From an alpha proteobacterium SCGC AAA536-K22 (GTDB lineage: Bacteria; Pseudomonadota; Alphaproteobacteria; Puniceispirillales; Marisalimonadaceae), in NCBI GenBank assembly GCA_000421325.1, contig ATWQ01000002.1, forward strand, positions 62,001 to 126,000: a stretch of DNA of 64,000 nucleotides, read 5' to 3'. Shown piece by piece: positions 45,783 to 57,990 of the stretch. The position numbers and the translations under genes were made by a program. The notes under the pieces are model-generated. The model was not told where the DNA came from, did not search any database, and saw only the letters and a program-made list of their open reading frames with translations. Every line of letters begins with the position of its first letter. Positions within the stretch are counted from its first letter, which is position 1.

Positions 45783-47438
45783 CTATACTCTATTAATGTG
45801 GACTTTGACTATTGGCCTTTTGGAAAAAGTTGACTTAAACTCACGCCTAACTAACTTTGAAATTTGACTAATTAGCTCTTCATCTAAAATTTCTGGATCG
45901 CAAGAAAGATTTTCAATAAAATCCTCTATTTTTAAAGATATATCAATTAAAACATTATCTACAATACTATTATCAGACACCCCAATTTGAGAAATTTGAG
46001 GGGTAATTACAAGATACCCATCTTTATCAATTACAATAGAAATAGTAACAAATCCATTCCATAAAGAGTGTCTTCTAGTAATAAACCTCTCATTATTAAT
46101 TGGTATTATTTCGCCTGCATCATATACGTGTGTAACAAAATCAAATCTAGAAACAATATTTGGTGCATTCCCATTTAATTTTATTACTTCGCCATTTTTG
46201 GGTTTTATAACAAGGGGTACTTGACAATTATTCGCCAAATCTGAATGCGCCTCGATATGTTCTCTGGTACCATGAACTGGAATAGAAATCTTTGGCTTGA
46301 TAAATGAGTACATCTCTATTAATTCGTCTCTAGAGGGATGTCCTGATACATGAACATTTTTATCATCATCCGTAACTATATTTATGCCTCTTTCTAAAAA
46401 CCTATTCTGAACTTTTAAAATTGCATTTTCATTTCCTGGTATTTTTCTACTGGAAAAGATTATAGTGTCACCTTTTATAAGTTTTATAAATTTATCATTA
46501 TCTTTAGAAATTCTAGAAAGTGCTGAGTTTGGTTCACCTTGTGAACCTGTAGAGATTATTAAAACATTAGACCTAGGAATAAGGTTAAAGTCTTTTAAAG
46601 ATAATAATTCTGGAATATTTTTTAAATAGCCAACCTCTTTTGCTGCATCAATAGCTCTTAAAAGAGCTCTACCTACCACTAAAACAGATCTATCAGTTTT
46701 TAATGCTATGTCTAAAAGTGACTTTATTCGACTTATGTTTGATGAAAAACAAGTTACAAGAACTGTATCATTACAATTCTTAATTGTATCTAATAAACCG
46801 TCATATGCAAAGTTTTCAGAGGGAGTTTTTCCATCAACCAACGCGTTAGTTGAATCACATACCATTGCTAATATCCCATTTTCTCCTATAGAACGAAAAT
46901 TATCTATATTAGTTTTTTCATTTAGATTAATTGAGTTTTCTAATTTCCAATCACCTGTATGAAAAATGTCTCCCTGTTTTGTGGAAATTAAAATTGAAAC
47001 TGGGTCTGGAATTGAGTGTGAAGTTTGAATAGCCTTGATTTGAAAAGGGCCAATTATTAGTTGTTTATCAATAGTAAGTGTGTTTAATTCTAATTTTTTT
47101 TCTTTATTATTTTCTTTTAATTTTCTTTTTAATAAAGCCATTGTAAATGATGTACCCCATATTGGACAATTAATATCATCTGCAAAATAAGGTATTGCTC
47201 CAATATGATCTTCATGACCATGAGTTAAGAATATTCCTAAAAACTTGTCACCTAAAGATTTGATAAATTTAAAGTCTGGTAATAATACATCTATACCTAA
47301 ATCTGTTTCGTCAGGAAATGAAATACCTAAATCTATTAAAATCCATTTATCTTCATAATGATACAAATTTGCATTCATACCTATTTCTTCAGATCCCCCA
47401 ACAGGTAAAAATAATAAATCAGATTTCTTCCAATGCAT
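45783..47438 (-). CDS. rnj: Ribonuclease J
   Basis: Metallo-beta-lactamase/beta-CASP nuclease with 5'-exo and endoribonuclease activity on mRNA and rRNA. The 551 aa contain LPVGGSEEIGMNANLY (about 11-26), metal motif THGHEDHIGA (about 71-80), IFHTGDWKLE (about 154-163), VCDSTNAL, the beta-CASP segment around STGSQGEPNSALSRIS, and HVSGHPSRDELIEMY (about 360-374). Alphaproteobacteria characteristically encode RNase J in the coaX-rnj context. The length is normal. Confidence 0.97.
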   Translation of the reverse strand: MHWKKSDLLFLPVGGSEEIGMNANLYHYEDKWILIDLGISFPDETDLGIDVLLPDFKFIKSLGDKFLGIFLTHGHEDHIGAIPYFADDINCPIWGTSFTMALLKRKLKENNKEKKLELNTLTIDKQLIIGPFQIKAIQTSHSIPDPVSILISTKQGDIFHTGDWKLENSINLNEKTNIDNFRSIGENGILAMVCDSTNALVDGKTPSENFAYDGLLDTIKNCNDTVLVTCFSSNISRIKSLLDIALKTDRSVLVVGRALLRAIDAAKEVGYLKNIPELLSLKDFNLIPRSNVLIISTGSQGEPNSALSRISKDNDKFIKLIKGDTIIFSSRKIPGNENAILKVQNRFLERGINIVTDDDKNVHVSGHPSRDELIEMYSFIKPKISIPVHGTREHIEAHSDLANNCQVPLVIKPKNGEVIKLNGNAPNIVSRFDFVTHVYDAGEIIPINNERFITRRHSLWNGFVTISIVIDKDGYLVITPQISQIGVSDNSIVDNVLIDISLKIEDFIENLSCDPEILDEELISQISKLVRREFKSTFSKRPIVKVHINRV

Positions 47439-47457: not shown

Positions 47458-48252
47458 TTAAATTGATTTGTTTTTTAAATATAATTCAACTAATCCAATT
47501 AGAGTTAAGTCATCAATTATCAGATCTATTGACCTTAGAGAGTCTTTAAATAAATGACTTAATCCGCCAGTGGCTATAATTTTATAATCAGAAAATTCAT
47601 CTATAGATTTAATTTTATTTATCAAACCTTCAATCATAGAGACATAACCCCAAAATATTCCAGATTCCATAGCATTTATAGTATTTTTACCAATAATTTT
47701 ATCAATGTCAGTCAATGGTTTTAAAGAAATCCTCGGGAGTCTTGCTGCAGCTAGATATAGGGCTTCCAGTGATAAATTTACACCTGGAGCGATAATTCCT
47801 CCATTATAACTTCCATCTTTACCAACTAAATCAAAAGTCGTGGCTGTTCCTAAATCGATTACTATTGCCGGAGATAACTCTAACTTCTTAGTTGCAAATG
47901 AATTAACCAAGCGGTCAGCACCTGCTTCGTTTGGGTTATCAATGTTAATTTTAATTCCAATATCAAAGTCATTTTCTCCAACAACAAATGACTTAACCTT
48001 AAAATATTTTTTTATTAAAGATTTTATATTTAAAAGAGTTTCAGGAACTACTGATGCAATGCATACTCCAGTAATATCTTTTAATTCAAACTTAGATAAA
48101 TTTAACATTTGTAAAAGCCAAGGATAGTATATATCTGCAGTTCTTTTAGAATTATTATTAATTCGCCAACAACCTTTTTGGTGTATATTTTTGTTATAAG
48201 AATATAGGGCAAATACTGTATTTGTATTTCCACAATCAATAGCTAATATCAT
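47458..48252 (-). CDS. coaX: Type III pantothenate kinase
   Basis: First step of CoA synthesis, insensitive to CoA feedback in the CoaX type. The 264 aa show the ASKHA fold with DCGNTNTVFALY (about 5-16), NEAGADRLVNSFA (about 107-119), VIDLGTATTFDLV (about 128-140) and GGIIAPGVNLS (about 148-158). The start overlaps the birA stop as ATGA, showing translational coupling. Confidence 0.97.
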   Translation of the reverse strand: MILAIDCGNTNTVFALYSYNKNIHQKGCWRINNNSKRTADIYYPWLLQMLNLSKFELKDITGVCIASVVPETLLNIKSLIKKYFKVKSFVVGENDFDIGIKINIDNPNEAGADRLVNSFATKKLELSPAIVIDLGTATTFDLVGKDGSYNGGIIAPGVNLSLEALYLAAARLPRISLKPLTDIDKIIGKNTINAMESGIFWGYVSMIEGLINKIKSIDEFSDYKIIATGGLSHLFKDSLRSIDLIIDDLTLIGLVELYLKNKSI

Positions 48253-48989
48253 GACAAATTATCAAATGGAAAGGTGACAGATTCTACAGAATAATAATCA
48301 CAAATACTAGATCCAACTTTAACTTGCAAGCTACCTCTTTCACCTAACCCTAAGAAGATACCTTTTATTTGAATGTTAGACGAATTAAGTGTCAAGTTGA
48401 TAACCTTTTCTTTATTTCTAATATTAGAATTTATTTTCTCTTTAAAATAAAAAAAATCTTTATCTTGCCAAGTAGAATAATTATGAAAAATTTTATTTAA
48501 TATTTTATAAGAAATATGTTCCAGAGACATTTTATTTAAAATATGGTCACTCAGTTTAGTTGTTTTCCATTTAGTTACGTTTTTCGGAGTTTTCAAAATA
48601 TTTAAACCTATACCAAAAATGATAAAATTATCAAAAGCCTCTAACAAAACTCCAGAAATTTTTTTATTGTTAACTAATACATCATTTGGCCATTTTAATT
48701 CAATATTATTACGATTTACACCAAAATCAACTAAAGTTTCTAATATTGAATATCCTATTAATAACGATAATTGATGCCAAACTTTCTTATCCTTTTTGGG
48801 TCTAAAGATAGATGATAAAAATAGATTGCCTTCTAAAGATTCCCATTTATTCTTATTCCTGCCTCTTCCATTAGTTTGTACATAAGATAAATATGAAGTT
48901 CCTTCAAGTGATCCATTTATAGCTTCTTTTCTAGCTACATCATTTGTACTAGAACAAGTTTTTAAAATATTTAAACTTATATTAATCAA
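48249..48989 (-). CDS. birA: Biotin--protein ligase (no DNA-binding domain)
   Basis: Attaches biotin to carboxylases. The 246 aa contain the catalytic loop NGRGRNKNKWES (about 40-51), LKWPNDVLVNNKKISGVLLEA (about 98-118) and a short C-terminal SH3-like domain. There is no N-terminal helix-turn-helix, so it cannot act as a biotin repressor. The start is a TTG at 48989 with AAGGA about eight bases upstream; no ATG is available. In alphaproteobacteria it normally follows nuoN; here it follows a NuoL-like gene by 29 bp. Confidence 0.95.
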   Translation of the reverse strand: MINISLNILKTCSSTNDVARKEAINGSLEGTSYLSYVQTNGRGRNKNKWESLEGNLFLSSIFRPKKDKKVWHQLSLLIGYSILETLVDFGVNRNNIELKWPNDVLVNNKKISGVLLEAFDNFIIFGIGLNILKTPKNVTKWKTTKLSDHILNKMSLEHISYKILNKIFHNYSTWQDKDFFYFKEKINSNIRNKEKVINLTLNSSNIQIKGIFLGLGERGSLQVKVGSSICDYYSVESVTFPFDNLS

Positions 48990-49018: not shown

Positions 49019-50713
49019 TTAATTGCTAGAAGAAAGATAAGATGAATAATATTTAAAAAATTTATTATGCTTTATTCTTATATTATTTCCAAATTTTGGA
49101 ATTAGAACATAATTAAATATAGATAACGATATCCCAAATAAACAAATTAAATTTGTTTGATCTATAAACCAGTCATGTGTTTGATTTTCATGACTTAAAG
49201 CAAAATCTGAGTTAAAATTTAATACTAAATTCCAAAAATACTCAGGGATTGGACCAGAGAATAGATTGTTTAAGAACCAGCCAGAAAAAATTAAACATGT
49301 TGCTAGCAAAAGAAGAATTATTTTTGTTAGAAACATATTTTCGTTAATTTTATTATACAAATGTATATTACAATTATTTTGACACCAAAACACAATTAAT
49401 ATGTTCTTAAATAAAGTATAAGAAAATAAAAAAAAATAAAAAAGACAGATAATTATAGAAAAAAACATAAACGTTTCATTCAATGTTTGGAGTGAAGAAA
49501 TAATTAATTTTTTAGAGTAAAAACTGGAGAAAAAAGGAACGCCTATTAATGATAATGAAGCAGTTAAAGTTAATAAAAACGTAAAAGGAGTTTTAATTAA
49601 TAGTAATCCCATTTTATCTATTTGATGTTCACCATTAAGTTTTGTTATTATAATACCATAACTTAAAAAAAGCATTGTTACCGATAATGTAGAAGTCAAT
49701 AAATAAAAAAATGCCCCATTATATACTTTTAAACCAATCATAAAAACTATTATGCTAAATTGAGAAGAAGCAACGTATACGGTTAAACTTTTTAAATTTT
49801 TAGACTTAAATATCAAAATAGTAAAAATTATTATAAAAATAAATCCAAGCAAAGTAATTACATTTAAAAAATTTGAATATGTCTCAGTCAGTGGTAAAAA
49901 TCTCAAGATCAAATAAATCCCAGAAGGTAAAAATATTCCTGAATATATTAAAGCCGATATAGAGGAATTAATTTTTAAAAAGTGATAACTTGAACTTCCT
50001 ATAAAAAACTGTCTGCACCTAAATAAGAAAGATAAAAATAAAACACATAAAATTAATTCAAAAACTGTAAGTTCTAGATCAAGCAACATTAATTTATTAT
50101 TTTGTCCAAGATAACTACTTTCAAAAATAACGTCAAAATCAATCGAATTTGTATACGAGTAGAGGAAAAACAAACATAAAAAAATGCCTAAGTCTGATAC
50201 TCTATTATAAAGAAAAACATTGTCGTTACCTTTTAAATCTTCTTTTTTTTGAAAAAGGTTAGTTAAAAAATAACATGATACCATTATTATTTGCCAACCT
50301 AAAAATAATTGAATTAAATTATTAGACGATACTAAAGTTAAAGAACCAAATATTGATAGAGATGAATATTTAATTATTTTTAAATCAACTTTATTATCTT
50401 TATAAAAATTTATTGAGTAAATTATGAATATGGTGGCGACTAAAGTTATAATAATTAGTAATCCGGAAACAAATAAATCTAATCTTAAAGACCAATCTAT
50501 TAAAAGTTTTTCTAATTTTAAAATTGGATAATAATATAGAGGTAGATCATTTTCAAAGTCTAGTAACTTTAGAAATAAATATGTACTTAGTACAAATGAT
50601 GAACTCATTAAAGCAGTATGCAAAATATATAACAATTTTACATTTTTAATTTTATCCGAGAACTGAAAAATTAAAAAGCTCAGTAAAGGGAAAATAAATA
50701 TTAATATTTCCAT
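49019..50713 (-). CDS. Divergent NuoL/ND5-like membrane protein lacking proton-path residues
   Basis: A 564-aa polytopic membrane protein that aligns along its length with the NuoL subunit of complex I (for example PILKLEKLLIDWSLRLDLF, NNLIQLFLGW, NRVSDLGIFL, ISALIYSG, SLIGVPFFSSFYSKK). Compared with E. coli NuoL, conserved residues are replaced: E144 by Gln (Q141), K229 by Arg (R232), H254 by Tyr (Y257), H334/H338/K342 by Tyr/Ser/Val (near 337-345), and D400 by Lys. No other nuo gene is present. It lies 84 bp after nqrF and directly before birA. The frame is fully open, so it is probably retained with a changed role rather than a dead relic. DabB-like transport is another possibility, but no DabA partner is adjacent. 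Confidence 0.75.
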   Translation of the reverse strand: MEILIFIFPLLSFLIFQFSDKIKNVKLLYILHTALMSSSFVLSTYLFLKLLDFENDLPLYYYPILKLEKLLIDWSLRLDLFVSGLLIIITLVATIFIIYSINFYKDNKVDLKIIKYSSLSIFGSLTLVSSNNLIQLFLGWQIIMVSCYFLTNLFQKKEDLKGNDNVFLYNRVSDLGIFLCLFFLYSYTNSIDFDVIFESSYLGQNNKLMLLDLELTVFELILCVLFLSFLFRCRQFFIGSSSYHFLKINSSISALIYSGIFLPSGIYLILRFLPLTETYSNFLNVITLLGFIFIIIFTILIFKSKNLKSLTVYVASSQFSIIVFMIGLKVYNGAFFYLLTSTLSVTMLFLSYGIIITKLNGEHQIDKMGLLLIKTPFTFLLTLTASLSLIGVPFFSSFYSKKLIISSLQTLNETFMFFSIIICLFYFFLFSYTLFKNILIVFWCQNNCNIHLYNKINENMFLTKIILLLLATCLIFSGWFLNNLFSGPIPEYFWNLVLNFNSDFALSHENQTHDWFIDQTNLICLFGISLSIFNYVLIPKFGNNIRIKHNKFFKYYSSYLSSSN

Positions 50714-50797: not shown

Positions 50798-52018
50798 TTA
50801 TCCACCAAAATCGTCAAGCATAATATCTTCCTTATCAACACCTAGGTCAAGAAGCATATTAGTTACGCATTGATTCATGATTGGAGGACCACACATATAA
50901 TACTCACAGTCCTCTGGCGCTGGATGGTCTTTTAGATATTGTTCAAATAAAACATTATGTATAAAACCAGTATGCCCTTTCCACTTATCTTCAGGCATTG
51001 CGTCTGATAGGGCGACATGCCAACTAAAATTAGAATTTTCTTTATCTAATTTATCAAAATCTTCTACGTAAAACATTTCTTTCTTTGACCTGGCACCATA
51101 CCAAAAGGTAACTTTGCGATTTGTCTTAATTCTATTAAACTGATCAAAAAGGTGACTACGCATCGGAGCCATACCAGCTCCACCTCCAATAAAAACCATT
51201 TCTTTATCAGTTTCTCTAGCATAAAACTCACCAAAAGGACCAGATATCACTACTTCGTCACCTGCCTTTAAATTAAAGATGTAAGAGGACATTTTACCTG
51301 CTGGAATACCCGAAGATCCAGGTGGAGGAGATGCTATTCTAACATTAAGCATAACTATACCTTTTTCAGCAGGACAATTAGCCATAGAATAAGCTCTTTC
51401 AATTGGTTCATTACTTTCAGCATTGAAATCCCAAATTTTAAACCTGTCCCAATCTTCATGATATTGTTTGTCCACTTCAAAGTCCTTGTAAGACAATGAA
51501 TATTTTGGGGCCTCTATTTGTATATAACCACCAGCACGAAAGTTTACATCTTCACCTTCTGGTAACTCTAATATTAATTCCTTGATAAAAGTTGCAACGT
51601 TATCGTTGCTTCTAACCTTACATCTCCATTTTCTTACACCAAAAACTTCTTCCGGAACTTCGATTTGCATATCTTGTTTAACCGCAACTTGGCAAGATAG
51701 TCTGTCACCACAAGATGCTTCTCGTTTGTTTATATGGCCAAGTTCAGTTGGGAGTATTGATCCACCACCTGCGTGAACTTTAACCCTACATTGAGCACAT
51801 GTTCCACCACCACCACAGGCTGAAGGTACGAAAAGTTTTTCAGCGGCTAAAGTTTGTAATAATTTACCCCCCGCTGGAACTGTCACAGTTTTTTCACCAT
51901 TAATAGTGATGCTAACATCACCAGAAGAAACTAATTTACTTCGGGCTAGTACAATTATTGAAACTAAAGTCAATACTATCATTGTAAAAAGAGTTATACC
52001 GAGAATAAAAGTGTCCAT
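50798..52018 (-). CDS. nqrF: Na+-translocating NADH:quinone reductase subunit F
   Basis: NADH-oxidising entry subunit of Na+-NQR. The 406 aa have one N-terminal transmembrane helix (about 3-25) and a 2Fe-2S ferredoxin domain with [10 protein letters not shown] (about 69-78) and a later Cys in LSCQV. The ferredoxin-reductase module has FAD motif RAYSMANCP (about 205-213), [10 protein letters not shown], and NADH motif [12 protein letters not shown]. The C-terminal [11 protein letters not shown] and GGxx ending are also typical. It is the last nqr gene, 12 bp after nqrE. Confidence 0.98.
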
Positions 52019-52030
52019 TTATTTTAATCC

Positions 52031-52712
52031 TTAAAGTTTAACACCAGAAAAACACATAAAAGCCATAGCCATTAATCCAGCAGTGATAAATGTGATACCT
52101 AAGCCTTGTAGACCATCAGGAATATCACTATATTTTAATTTTTCCCTTACACCAGCCATTGTAGCGATAGCTAAGGCCCATCCAAAACCAGAAGCAATTC
52201 CATAAGTTGTTGCCTCTGAAAAATTATAATCTCTTTCAACCATAAATAATGAGCCACCTAATATTGCACAATTAACTGTTATTAATGGTAAGAAAATACC
52301 TAATGCATTGTATAATGGCGGAAAATATTTGTCTAAAATCATCTCTAAAATTTGAACTAAAGCTGCTATAACACCAATGTAAGATATCAATCCTAAAAAT
52401 GTCAAATCAACATTAGGAAATCCAGCCCAAGCAAGAGCTCCAGGCTTAAGTAAATAAGATAATATTATATTATTAGCTGGAACAGTTATGGATTGAACTA
52501 TCATTACTGAAATTCCTAAACCTATAGCCGTAGAAATTTTTTTTATAGCTGGAACAGTTATGGATTGAACTATCATTACTGAAATTCCTAAACCTATAGC
52601 CGTAGAAATTTTTTTTTGATACAGCAATAAATGTACACATACCAAGAAAAAAAGATAGTGCTAGGTTTTCAACAAATATCGCTTTTACAGCTAATGAAAT
52701 CAAAGCTTCCAT
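52031..52712 (-). CDS. nqrE: Na+-NQR subunit E, carrying a 72-bp internal duplication and a +1 frameshift
   Basis: Integral membrane subunit E of Na+-NQR (about 200 aa, six helices). The N-terminal frame gives [19 protein letters not shown] and continues to FIAVSKK. An A9 run (plus-strand T9 at 52609-52617) then shifts it, whereas A8 would restore [15 protein letters not shown]. The downstream frame is intact to GVKL at 52031, but the stretch [19 protein letters not shown]...VPA appears twice in tandem, adding 24 residues and a second copy of one helix. The total of 682 bases is 3n+1. The other nqr genes around it suggest a needed complex, so a mis-assembly or error is plausible. Confidence 0.9.
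52474..52617. repeat. Perfect 72-bp tandem duplication inside nqrE
   Basis: Bases 52474-52544 are identical to 52546-52616, a two-copy direct repeat with a 72-base period, starting TAGCTGGAACAG and ending in a T run. The copies differ only in the terminal T run (T8 in 52537-52544, T9 in 52609-52617). The 72-base unit is in phase with the nqrE codons (24 codons), and the extra T causes the frameshift. Confidence 0.97.
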
Positions 52713-53368
52713 TAATGGACCTCTAGTGATTGTATCTTATACTCACGAGCTTCAACTTGCGATTTTTTCCATGACCGCACACCCCAAATTAAAAAACCTA
52801 TTATAAAAAAAGCGGATGGAGGCAATAATAATAGACCATTTGGAACATACCATCCACCATTATTCACTGGATCTAAAATAGTAATACCAAATAAAGTACC
52901 TGATCCAAAAAGTTCTCTAACTACCCCTACGCACATTAATAGTAAGCTATAACCTAATCCATTTCCAACACCATCAACAAATGAATTAAAAGGAGTGTTT
53001 TTCATAGCAAAAGCTTCTGCTCTTCCCATAACAATACAGTTTGTTATTATTAAACCTACAAAAACAGATAAAGTTTTTGATATCTCATAAGCATAAGCTT
53101 TTATTATTTGGTCAACAAGAATAACAAGAGAGGCTATTATAACCATCTGGACTATAATTCTAATAGAATTTGGTATATAATTTCTAAGAAATGAAATAAA
53201 CAATGAAGAAAATCCAGTAACAGCAATAACAGCTAGGGACATAACAAAAGCAACATTTAGAGAAGAAGTTACTGCTAAAGCAGAGCAAATACCCAAAACC
53301 TGAAGCGTTATTGGATTATTATCAACTAGAGGATCGACTAGTAATTGTTTTCTAGTCTGAGACATCAA
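52712..53368 (-). CDS. nqrD: Na+-NQR subunit D
   Basis: Integral membrane subunit of Na+-NQR, 218 aa, with six predicted helices and homology to NqrE/RnfA. Family stretches are [20 protein letters not shown] (about 19-38), [16 protein letters not shown] (about 105-120; this conserved NC half-site contributes to the intramembrane FeS centre shared with NqrE), and [11 protein letters not shown]. It overlaps nqrC by four bases and the nqrE start by one. Confidence 0.97.
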
Positions 53369-54156
53369 GCCGCTCCATTTTTAAAATTGCTAAGAAATTT
53401 CTTAAAACCATCTTCACCCATCCAAAACTTTACCAGATTATCTACACCATTTGAAGTAAGTGTAGCACCTGCTAATGCGTCAATATGATGTTCTTTATAT
53501 TTTTTAGTCTTGGCAACTTGAATCATTAATTCACCATTTTTATTATTTAATTTTTTGCCCTTCCATTGAGCTTTCCATTTTGGATTATCAACTTCAGCCC
53601 CCAAACCAGGTGTTTCAGCATGTTGATAAAATTGAAGACCAAAAATGTCATTAAGATTATTTTCTAATGCTATAAACCCATATAATGTGGACCACAAACC
53701 ATATCCATGGATAGGAAGAATAACTTTATCTAGAGATCCATCATCTTTTTTTAGAAGATAAATAGTAGCATAATTAGTCCTTCTTCCTATAGATGCAGGA
53801 TCATTTTTTAGAGAAATACTAAGTAATGGATCTTGAGAAGCTTTTTTATCATCAAAAATGGATGGGTCAAATTTATCAGTAAATTTACCAGTATTAAGGT
53901 CAACTACTAATGGTTGAAATGAAGAAAATGTTTTATTTACATCAATACCTTCATGATAAACACCTGCAACTTGTAAAATATTTTTTTGCTTATCTATTGC
54001 TTTATTAACTTCTTGTATAGACTTAAGATTTACAGCGGCAAATGATACAACCATAGAACAAACAAAGCATAGAGCGGTTGCAACTATTACTGTTTTAACA
54101 ATACCGTCAACTGGCATGTTTTTAAATTTTGTAAATATGTTATTCGAATTAGACAC
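53365..54156 (-). CDS. nqrC: Na+-NQR subunit C
   Basis: Periplasm-exposed subunit with covalent FMN, 263 aa. One N-terminal helix (about 18-40) is followed by a soluble FMN-binding domain. The flavinylation motif lies in [17 protein letters not shown] near 229-245, where the Thr in AGAT is the expected FMN attachment site. Upstream the conserved [14 protein letters not shown] (about 156-169) and ETPGLGAEV are present. ApbE, which performs the flavinylation, is encoded nearby. Confidence 0.97.
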
Positions 54157-55360
54157 TATATTTAGCCCTTCGTTTTATATTAGCCATTACTACAAAATGA
54201 TCAATCAAAGGAGCAAATATATTTCCAAATAAAATTGCTAGCATCATACCCTCTGGAAACGCTGGATTTAAAACTCTTATCATTACAACCATAAAGCCAA
54301 TTAAAGCTCCATAAATATAACGACCCATATTAGTATGACTAGCTGAGACTGGCTCAGTTACCATAAATACTAGTCCAAAAGCGTAACTTCCAATAACTAA
54401 ATGCCAGTACCAAGGCATACTAAACATGGGATTTGTGTCAGAACCAACCCAATTTAAAAATGAAGAAAAAATTATCATTCCTAATAAACAACCAACTATC
54501 ATTCTATAATTAGCTATTTTGGTCATTAAAAGAAAAATTAGGCCCATTCCAATTGCTAAAGTTGAAGTTTCTCCCAAAGATCCCTGAATGTTGCCTAAAA
54601 ATGCATCCATCCAAGTTATGCCATAATTACTAAGACTCTCATATCCTTCTGAAGCAGAAATACCCAAGGATGTTGCAGCTGAATAACCATCAACTGGTGT
54701 CCAAATTGAATCACCAGACATATAAGCTGGATATGCAAAATATAAAAAAGCACGACCTGTAAGAGCGGGATTGAGAAAATTTTTCCCAGTTCCTCCAAAT
54801 ACTTCTTTTCCAACAACAACACCAAAAGCTATTCCTAAAGCAACTTGCCATAAAGGAGTAGAGGCAGGCAAAGTTAGTGCAAAAAGCATGGAAGAAACTA
54901 AAAAGCCCTCATTAACTTCATGTCCTCTTATAGTAGCAAACGTAACTTCGCATATACCACCAGCTATTAAAGTTGTTAGATAGATAGGAAGAAAATATAA
55001 TAATCCATGGGTTATATTTGATAGAAGACTTTGTGGATCAAGACCAAGTCCAGTCATTTGTAAAAGAGAAATTCTCCAACCTGTTTCACCAATTGAACCG
55101 AGGGAGGCTAAAGCGCTATTAGTCTGAAAACCCGTATTATATAAAGCCCACAATACGCAAGGGATAGTCGAAATAACTACATAAGTCATTACTCGTTTCA
55201 TGTCGACAAAACTCCTAGCATGTGGAGCTACTTTAGTAACAGTATTACTTGTAAAAAATATTGTCTCAATCATTTCAAAGATTGGATAATATTTTTCATA
55301 TTTTCCGCCTCTTTCAAAATGAGGTTCGATAGAATTAAAATAACTACGTATTGACATCAA
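54149..55360 (-). CDS. nqrB: Na+-NQR subunit B
   Basis: Main Na+-pumping membrane subunit, 403 aa, with about ten helices, covalent FMN and riboflavin. KVAPHARSFVDMKRVM (about 41-56) leads into the membrane domain. The flavinylation motif is VDGYSAATSLG near 223-233, with the Thr kept and Gly replaced by Ala relative to the usual SGAT. GKEVFGGTGKNFLNPALTGRAFLYFAYP and ATSLGISASEG follow the family. It overlaps nqrC by eight bases and starts right after nqrA. Confidence 0.97.
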   Translation of the reverse strand: MMSIRSYFNSIEPHFERGGKYEKYYPIFEMIETIFFTSNTVTKVAPHARSFVDMKRVMTYVVISTIPCVLWALYNTGFQTNSALASLGSIGETGWRISLLQMTGLGLDPQSLLSNITHGLLYFLPIYLTTLIAGGICEVTFATIRGHEVNEGFLVSSMLFALTLPASTPLWQVALGIAFGVVVGKEVFGGTGKNFLNPALTGRAFLYFAYPAYMSGDSIWTPVDGYSAATSLGISASEGYESLSNYGITWMDAFLGNIQGSLGETSTLAIGMGLIFLLMTKIANYRMIVGCLLGMIIFSSFLNWVGSDTNPMFSMPWYWHLVIGSYAFGLVFMVTEPVSASHTNMGRYIYGALIGFMVVMIRVLNPAFPEGMMLAILFGNIFAPLIDHFVVMANIKRRAKYSV

Positions 55361-56705
55361 TTATCCTTCTTTCTCAATTTTTTGAAGACTATCTCTTAGA
55401 GCAACTCCATACTCATATTTGGCAGGACACGCAAATGTACACAAAGCCACATCTTCTTCGTCTAGTTCTAATGCACCAAGAGACTGAGCAACGTCAGTAT
55501 CCATGACCAACAATGATCTCAATAATTGTGTTGGCAAAATATCTTGAGGCATCAAAGTTTCAAAAACACCTGTAGGCACCATGGCCCTTCTGCCACCGTT
55601 TAGATTTGATGTTAAAGCAAATAACTTAAAAAAGCTAAATGCTGATAGTAAAACAGGCATTACTGAAAATTTACTAGGTTGTGGTTTGATCCAACCAAAA
55701 AAATGTTTTTCTTTATCTTCTTTTATAATTGTAATTTGACGAGAATATTTACCTAAAAAAGCTAAATCGTCAACAGCATGGAATCCAGATAAAATAGAAC
55801 CTGAAATTACTCTACAATCATCAGTTTTTGGATATTCGCCTTCAAGGATGTCATCCAATGATGCACCCAAAACTGTTTTAATTAATCTTGGATTGTTAGC
55901 AAGCGGACCAGCAATCGAAATTACACGAGTAATATCAATGAAACCAGTTAAAAATAACTTTCCAATAGTAATTACGTCTTGATATCCAATTGACCATACA
56001 GTCTTGTCAGAGTTAGGAGGATCAAGAAAGTGCATGTGAGTTCCAGTCAAACCAGCAGGATGCGGGCCAGCAAATTCGTATGTTTCAAACTCGTTAAATT
56101 GAATGTCACTATTTTCCTTTTTACAAATAAATACTTTACCATCAGTTAGCAAAGAAATGTTTTTAACACCTTCTTCAAAAGCTTTTAAATCATTATGAAT
56201 TATTAATTCTGCATCTGGGCATAATGGTTCTGTATCCATAGCCGTAACAAAAATTGAAGAAGGCTTTGCATCGCTTGCCGGTACTTTTGAATAAGGTCTG
56301 GTTAGGAATGAAGTCCATAAACCACTGTCAAATAGACATTTTTTTTACATATTCACTTTTAGATTTTTCTTTAGAATGTAATTTTGTAATTTCAATTCCC
56401 TTGTCGGCAATATCTTCAACATCGATCACAACGCTAAGTAAAGCTCTTTTATCACCTCTGTTAATATCTTGAACTCTACCCTTGCAAGGAGAGACATAAA
56501 GGATATCTTGCTGATCTTTGTGACAAAAAAGAGGAGTGCCTCGTTTTACTTGATCTCCAACATTTATAAGCATTTTTGGCTTTAGACCATTATATTCAGG
56601 GCCAACAATAGCAACGGAACGTGGATTTTTTGTTTCATCTATTACTTGTCTTGGAATTCCTAATACGGGGATATCTAAACCTTTTTTTAAATTAAATTTT
56701 TTCAT
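55361..56705 (-). CDS. nqrA: Na+-NQR subunit A, interrupted by a +1 frameshift
   Basis: Cytoplasmic quinone-site subunit of Na+-NQR. The first frame (56705 down to about 56340) runs MKKFNLKKGLDIPVLG to SKSEYVKK. The next part, CLFDSGLWTSFLTRPYSKVP, lies one base out of frame and continues via IFVTAMDTEPLCPDAE to the C-terminal LCTFACPAKYEYG. Reading the A8 run (plus-strand T8 at 56339-56346) as A7 restores a continuous 448-codon gene, including the stop, of normal family length. Total length 1345 is 3n+1. The rest of the sequence is well conserved, arguing against long-term decay. Confidence 0.93.
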
Positions 56706-56970: not shown

Positions 56971-57990
56971 ATGAAATATACAAAACTTATTATTTTCCTG
57001 ATAATCAGCACTTTAATTTTATCTTGCTCTGAAGATAAAAAATATAATATCGAACTTAAAGGTAATACAATGGGCACGTATTATCTCCTTAGTTTAGTTG
57101 ATGTTCCTAAAAACCTTTCTAAAAAAGAAATAGAAATTGAGATAAAAAACACATTACTTAAAGCAAATAAAATTTTATCTAATTGGGATAAATCATCAGA
57201 AATTAGTAAGTTAAATAATAACAAGACAATAAAGCCAATACAGATCTCTAATGAACTTTTTGATGTTGTAAGTGAAGCTAACTCTATTAATACCAAAAGT
57301 AATGGTTATTTCGATATAACCCTTGATCCATTGATAGAATTATGGGGGTTTGGATATTCAAAAGGCAAGATTATTGACAGAGTTCCAAGCAAAAATAAGA
57401 TAAGAGATACTTTAACTTTAGTTAATCAAAATTTACTTTTAGAAATCAATTCAAATAATCAATTAATTAAAAAAAATAAAAATGTTAGATTAAATTTGTC
57501 AGCTATTGGAAAAGGGTATGGAATAGATCTTATTGGAAAAAAATTAGATTATCTAAATATTAATAATTATATAATTGATATCGGGGGTGATATATTTGCT
57601 AAAGGCCATAATAAAAATAATAAAGATTGGGTAGTTGGAATAGAAAACCCAAAATTAAATGAAAAGCTCATCAAAGAGATTGTTAATGTTTCAAATAAAG
57701 GAGTGGCTACTTCAGGAGAATACAAAAATTACTTTTCAAAAGATGGAACAAAATATTCACATATTATTAACCCTAAAAATGGAATGCCTATTACTCACTC
57801 AACAAAATCAGTTACAGTAGTTGATAAAAATGCAATGAGCGCTGATGGATGGGCAACCGCATTAATTGCGATGGGAAGTAAAGTTGGATTAAAAGTAGCA
57901 GAAAAAGAAAAAATTGCTGTTATGTTTATTGATCAAGTAGAAGACAAATTGTTGAAAATTAAAAGTAGCGAATTTAAATTTTTTAAATAA
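56971..57990 (+). CDS. apbE: FAD:protein FMN transferase ApbE
   Basis: Periplasmic flavin transferase that attaches FMN to Thr in NqrB and NqrC. The 339 aa start with a lipoprotein signal ending in ILSC (Cys near 19). GNTMGTYY (about 31-38) follows, then NGYFDITLDPLIELWGFG, the LNLSAIGKGYGIDLI FAD-binding segment (about 174-188), IDIGGDIFAKG (about 202-212) and SHIINPKNGMP plus the Mg-site AMSADGWATALIAMG. Its location divergent from nqrA and upstream of nqrM fits an NQR maturation unit. Confidence 0.96.
   Translation: MKYTKLIIFLIISTLILSCSEDKKYNIELKGNTMGTYYLLSLVDVPKNLSKKEIEIEIKNTLLKANKILSNWDKSSEISKLNNNKTIKPIQISNELFDVVSEANSINTKSNGYFDITLDPLIELWGFGYSKGKIIDRVPSKNKIRDTLTLVNQNLLLEINSNNQLIKKNKNVRLNLSAIGKGYGIDLIGKKLDYLNINNYIIDIGGDIFAKGHNKNNKDWVVGIENPKLNEKLIKEIVNVSNKGVATSGEYKNYFSKDGTKYSHIINPKNGMPITHSTKSVTVVDKNAMSADGWATALIAMGSKVGLKVAEKEKIAVMFIDQVEDKLLKIKSSEFKFFK

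Follow-up and report, generated by a model that had tools for sequence, protein, structure and literature searches.

The replacement of nuo by nqr in the SAR116 groups LGC2-C and LGC2-D, with a nuoL gene lying beside nqr, is described in the main-text passages of Roda-Garcia et al. (2021), which also report that nuoL is missing from the closest nqr operon, that of HTCC2181 (PMC8547437). The swap and the adjacent nuoL are already known from these passages, and the gene and the replacement event are evidently the same as those treated here; the residue losses, the shift of constraint, the clean loss, the restriction to one genus and the role considered below have no counterpart in them. The nearest relatives of the gene product, hereafter the orphan, are the NuoL/ND5 proteins of SAR116 members of the same family (genera g11 and g13), with which it shares the fold, the helix order TM1–15, 35 common invariant columns and the position in the locus. 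In contrast to these proteins, the orphan is about 80 aa shorter, lacks E144, H254, H338 and K342 (E. coli numbering), carries R in place of K229, stands without NuoM, NuoN and the hydrophilic arm, and has its constraint redistributed. MrpA and MrpD have the same antiporter fold (7qru_D, Z 33.3; 6z16_D, Z 33.0), but their HMM scores with the orphan fall below that of NuoL, and the orphan lies outside the mrp cluster and lacks the MrpA C-terminal extension. DabB of the DabAB inorganic-carbon transporters is likewise a NuoL-like protein outside complex I, but no DabA occurs in the genus or the other order members searched, and the orphan gives a marginal DabB2 match only (E 2.8e-4). ApbE, an accessory factor of Na+-NQR, is encoded divergently from nqrA at the orphan locus; its fold is unrelated, and the orphan is missing beside other alphaproteobacterial nqr operons.

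The window, the 64,000-nucleotide stretch of DNA analysed here, belongs to a low-GC SAR116 alphaproteobacterium of the AAA536-G10 group; its named relatives, SCGC AAA536-G10 among them, comprise single cells and MAGs of SAR116. The orphan (49019..50713, minus strand) is a frame of 564 codons with no internal stop, flanked by gaps of 84 and 29 bp and by genes on the same strand. Directly upstream lie nqrF (50798..52018, minus) and then nqrA–nqrE (52031..56705, minus), with apbE, a flavin transferase homologue, divergent from nqr (56971..57990, plus). Directly downstream, birA (48249..48989, minus) is the first of the genes found behind nuoN in sister genera, succeeded here by coaX (47458..48252, minus) and rnj of the ribonuclease J family (45783..47438, minus). 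Other families of the order, as well as genera g11 and g13, have the gene order nuo...L-M-N-birA-coaX-rnj-DUF1467-rpiB-glyA-nrdR-ribD at this site, while the orphan's genus has apbE (divergent) and nqrABCDEF-orphan-birA-coaX-rnj and onward. The nqrABCDEF genes and the orphan thus occupy exactly the nuo...L-M-N site of the sister genera, in agreement with the preliminary description, which had taken nuoL-nuoM-nuoN-birA-coaX-rnj to be the normal arrangement. Since the gap to nqrF is 84 bp and no terminator-like site was found between nqrF and birA, the orphan is probably co-transcribed with nqr. No RNA families were found at the locus, and a promoter scan returned 32 sites against 23.9 in shuffles. 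Two nqr genes are disrupted in the window assembly. A frameshift splits nqrA (55361-56705) into ORFs of 125 and 292 aa, where relatives have one ORF of 447 aa, and nqrE contains a 72-bp tandem duplication (52464-52607; copies 94% alike) that breaks the frame near its 5' end; in relatives the segment is present once and NqrE is intact at 202 aa. The duplication is probably an assembly error, and together the two defects suggest that the window assembly contains sequence errors or that this cell has a broken NQR.

Profile searches, on which all whole-genome statements here are based, found no further complex I genes in the window genome (1.995 Mb, 92 contigs, 80% complete). Of the 37 genomes of the genus, 36 lack NuoH and NuoD, including two that are 99% and 100% complete (G014 and G031); nearly all other order members searched have them. 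The lone genome with complex I genes, the MAG G030, carries nuoL (640 aa), nuoH and nuoD on contigs C68 and C96. Contamination of this MAG stands at 5%, and its full-length nuoL contig bears another, divergent coaX (39% identity), so that its complex I contigs look foreign and probably are. The AAA536-G10-group genus lacks complex I, and the option that the complex is encoded elsewhere in the genome was rejected on the negative NuoH/NuoD searches. The locus comparison and the genus-wide absence bear out the earlier proposals that no other nuo gene is present and that NQR replaced complex I in place with one NuoL descendant kept. Besides the orphan, the window genome encodes three PF00361 proteins, all within an Mrp operon on contig C23 (L005:8712-16046), which comprises mrpE, F, G, B and C and three separate antiporter-like subunits (569, 485 and 497 aa), with no canonical long MrpA. 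Elsewhere, in the otherwise complete genome G031, a PF00361 match (G031:C57:821-1651) is broken by two in-frame TGA codons.

The NuoL model TIGR01974 is the top NCBIfam match of the orphan (239 bits, E 1.4e-70), although the score lies below the model's cut-off of 407.5 bits; NuoM (61 bits), NuoN (40 bits) and Mrp models all fall in the range of about 38–70 bits. PF00361 is matched above its cut-off (89.5 bits), and the nearest solved structure by sequence is Paracoccus NuoL (8qby, E 5.9e-45). A single-chain AlphaFold (AF2) model built on an alignment of 16 homologues is of moderate quality (mean pLDDT 70, pTM 0.76), and its best Foldseek and VIA matches are all ND5/NuoL (VIA Z 33–36). The best superposition, at Z 36 to ND5, spans E. 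coli NuoL residues 3–523, and the C-terminus aligns little past E. coli residue 535, within the first part of the lateral helix. Accordingly, the orphan has the antiporter fold of TM1–15 but neither the distal half of the lateral amphipathic helix nor TM16. Truncation of E. coli NuoL in the lateral-helix region leaves negligible complex I activity (PMC3274701). No viral contig searched contained a relative of the orphan, and a plasmid search returned just ordinary NuoL-like matches with less than 60% identity. A search of genome contigs with the single protein as query matched nothing, while an alignment query recovered the orphan homologues. The orphan is a real and intact protein, and its family score, fold and locus establish its NuoL ancestry. 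Identity as an Mrp subunit was not borne out, with the mrp cluster on C23 containing no orphan and the Mrp models scoring below 70 bits, and DabB identity was rejected because DabA (PF10070) is missing from all 61 genomes of the genus and other order members searched, control genomes being matched. That the orphan serves as a normal subunit of complex I, with its partners elsewhere or missing from the assembly, or as a DabB working with DabA, is vanishingly unlikely: the 80% completeness of the window genome leaves room for the former, but the genus-wide lack of NuoH/NuoD outside one contaminated MAG, the lack of DabA and the loss of both catalytic residues and tail stand against it.

In the sequence tree with all rows included, the orphans sit on a stem of 5.1 changes per column and group with fast-evolving Alphaproteobacteria; when the fastest-evolving rows are removed, they fall inside the NuoL of the SAR116 order (SH-aLRT 99.8), beside the NuoL of their own family (81). 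Because of the long stem the position is unsafe by itself, and the tree was set aside as sole proof of origin, its placement changing with the fast-evolving rows in or out. Tree and locus combined are best explained by descent from the local NuoL, the tree alone falling short of proof.

The proton path of NuoL was compared among 16 orphans, E. coli NuoL and 44 alphaproteobacterial NuoL. The path is intact in all 44, one undetermined residue aside. In the window protein, E144 is changed to Q, K229 to R, H254 to Y, H334 to Y, H338 to S and K342 to V, exactly as the preliminary description had read them. Across the 16 orphans, E144 is replaced without exception, the corresponding position (Q141 in the window, codon 50291..50293, minus) being occupied by Q, Y or H. 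The position of K229, a K in every NuoL compared, is R in all 16 (R232, codon 50018..50020, minus). H254 is replaced by Y, F, L or I, H338 by S, T or F, and K342 by V, L, F or T. D178 of E. coli (orphan D174) is retained in all 16. The change of D400 to K, also listed earlier, is literally correct, but the neighbouring K399, invariant across the NuoL set, is kept in the window protein (K401, codon 49511..49513, minus); this lysine persists in the five orphans of the window's subclade, and the remaining 11 have N or H there. The orphan probably does not pump. In E. coli NuoL, E144Q and K229A each severely cut complex I activity, but barely alter the ability of NuoL to rescue a B. subtilis mrpA deletion (PMC4938563), so that the loss of residues by itself leaves some transport role possible. 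This rescue, together with the presence in the genome of an Mrp with three antiporter-like subunits, favours a role of the orphan alongside the Mrp Na+/H+ antiporter, as a NuoL/MrpA-like module exchanging the Na+ pumped by NQR. We consider such a partnership very unlikely, as the key residues were all lost together, G031 keeps Mrp without the orphan, Mrp already has its three antiporter-like subunits, and the orphan is unlinked to mrp.

The orphan is under purifying selection. Its dN/dS is 0.18–0.25 at the closest pairs (dS 0.27–0.53), with likelihood ratios against 1 of 64–92; a value well under 1 indicates selection acting on the protein. This dN/dS is similar to or above that of birA (0.11–0.20) and roughly 5–20 times that of nqrB, nqrC and nqrF (0.01–0.04). 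Neutral evolution over a distance of 0.3 should have introduced about 26 stops, but the 16 copies, intact at 35–89% pairwise identity, contain none, so the open frame is not due to chance. A pseudogene was rejected on these two grounds, in line with the earlier view that the gene is not dead. None of the findings named beforehand as contrary to that account, namely a nuo operon elsewhere, stop-ridden homologues or a DabA partner, was obtained. A subtler form of decay is a rival reading: the orphan could be a slowly dying relic that is lost upon clean deletion and whose frame stays open mainly through polarity, as a stop or frameshift would leave untranslated mRNA exposed ahead of the essential birA-coaX-rnj genes. 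The constraint is indeed weak, the dN/dS of about 0.2 being close to that of birA. Furthermore, the orphan has the lowest GC of the twelve locus genes measured (0.224), shares its strand with its neighbours across short gaps, and has been cleanly lost in G028 and G031. Polarity, however, guards against stops and not against amino-acid changes, and about 80 alignment columns are invariant across the 16 orphans, while 61 columns carry fixed, orphan-specific new residues. Given also the dN/dS, which requires selection on the protein itself, and the regions described next that are better conserved than in working NuoL, we regard the relic as a rather doubtful explanation.

The distribution of conservation along the protein differs from that of NuoL. 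The per-column correlation between orphans and NuoL is 0.16, compared with 0.79 between SAR116 NuoL and other alphaproteobacterial NuoL as a control; the orphan set includes nine closely related sequences, and the control set also contains close groups. TM8 and TM10, the best conserved helices in NuoL, are about average in the orphans (0.51 vs 0.92 for TM8; 0.54 vs 0.91 for TM10). Conversely, TM1 (residues 2–18; 50660..50710, minus) is the most conserved helix of the orphans, at 0.80 vs 0.53 in NuoL, and the TM13–TM14 loop (residues 443–460; 49334..49387, minus), with the motif QNNCNIHLYNKI, reaches 0.75 vs 0.57. This loop is predicted to face the cytoplasm by analogy with NuoL topology, since the lateral helix after TM15 of NuoL lies on that side (PMC3274701). 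In the orphans, constraint has shifted from the proton path to TM1 and the TM13–TM14 loop, and mere relaxation would not explain why these parts are more conserved than in NuoL. This finding suggests re-purposing rather than plain decay. A passive path for ions or anions, as the preliminary description had it, or for water would be one such new use, for which the antiporter fold offers a hydrophobic, partly polar interior with W140, R171, D174, Q235, R/K234 and the invariant R232 within the helix bundle. Yet the polar axis is broken where H254, H338 and K342 have given way to hydrophobic or small residues, conservation is comparatively low in the channel helices TM8 and TM10, and an uncoupled leak would be an energetic burden on a streamlined cell; a passive path is accordingly improbable.

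Intact orphans were found in 16 species-level genomes and adjoin nqrF in every one of them, and partial copies stand at contig ends in three more (G003, G020 and G009). In G031 and G028, by contrast, nqrF and birA are adjacent (80–99 bp) without any trace of the orphan; nqr is complete in G031, and the G028 contig is cut within nqrA in the stretch read. Since G028, G029 and G031 form one clade (support 100/100), a single loss suffices, and the two clean absences probably reflect one event. Presence was left unscored in seven genomes whose contigs end at the site (G011, G014, G016, G024, G029, G034 and G035). In about ten relatives (G003, G009, G011, G014, G016, G020, G024, G029, G034 and G035; L080, L092-L094 and L109-L119), contigs stop at or beside the orphan gene. 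The GC of the gene is 0.20–0.22, with 100-bp stretches of 11–14%, and the named relatives with such breaks are largely single-cell (AG-) isolates. Low GC and single-cell amplification are the likely cause, and hypervariability within populations was set aside because, with single-cell isolates and low GC at the orphan, an amplification or coverage artefact is simpler.

When 136 genomes from the order and 289 from the class were searched with a profile, the short NuoL form turned up in this genus alone. At seven further alphaproteobacterial nqr loci, no NuoL-like gene adjoins nqr within the stretch covered, two of these stretches ending close to nqrF. Four small-genome Alphaproteobacteria with nqr (G197, G212, G223 and G327; L208-L211) have an NqrF 68–70% identical and no close NuoL; G212, G223 and G327 contain no PF00361 protein, and G197 (1.2 Mb, 100% complete) has three divergent ones of 491, 495 and 610 aa. 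The orphan is dispensable: as relatives and other NQR-bearing Alphaproteobacteria do without it, Na+-NQR does not need the orphan. The check proposed in the preliminary description, whether every relative with nqr at this locus keeps the gene, thus gives a negative answer in G031 and G028. Of the features looked for in an NQR subunit or accessory, adjacency to nqrF is seen in all 16 copies; presence wherever this NQR occurs is not, given the absence from these two genomes and the seven other nqr loci.

Collectively, the orphan was probably kept for a new, non-pumping job, and we put the chances that it is a re-purposed, non-pumping NuoL at about even. In this reading, the ancestor of a single SAR116 genus acquired nqrABCDEF where its complex I genes had been, and the NuoL descendant stayed. 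The protein still folds as a 15-helix antiporter and inserts into the membrane, but has lost the proton-moving machinery together with the tail that clamps NuoL to NuoM/N/K. The central E144–K229 pair appears to have given way to the fixed arginine R232, possibly salt-bridged as a static pair to the invariant D174. The resulting non-pumping membrane protein, with TM1 and the TM13–TM14 loop as its constrained parts, may most plausibly act in the inner membrane as an accessory or assembly partner that the cell can do without, for which NQR is the first candidate because the orphan lies in seemingly the same transcription unit. An NQR-accessory role is possible; NQR as its specific partner is a tentative choice that we hold to be rather unlikely. 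The fuller picture of an ion-path-disabled NuoL acting as a lineage-specific structural or regulatory partner of Na+-NQR, in a hybrid assembly where the fold is purely a scaffold, is unlikely too. Against the orphan as an NQR subunit stands its dN/dS relative to the nqr genes, which is unusual for a subunit of a conserved complex.

The orphan amounts to a natural experiment, an antiporter-like protein having outlived the pump to which it belonged. The 16 naturally occurring versions, in which nearly all of the proton path is missing, are useful for separating the residues that keep the fold from those that move protons. Should a non-pumping role be identified, it would reveal which functions besides proton transfer are open to the NuoL fold, and whether the swap of a respiratory complex can leave behind a part that the newcomer adopts.
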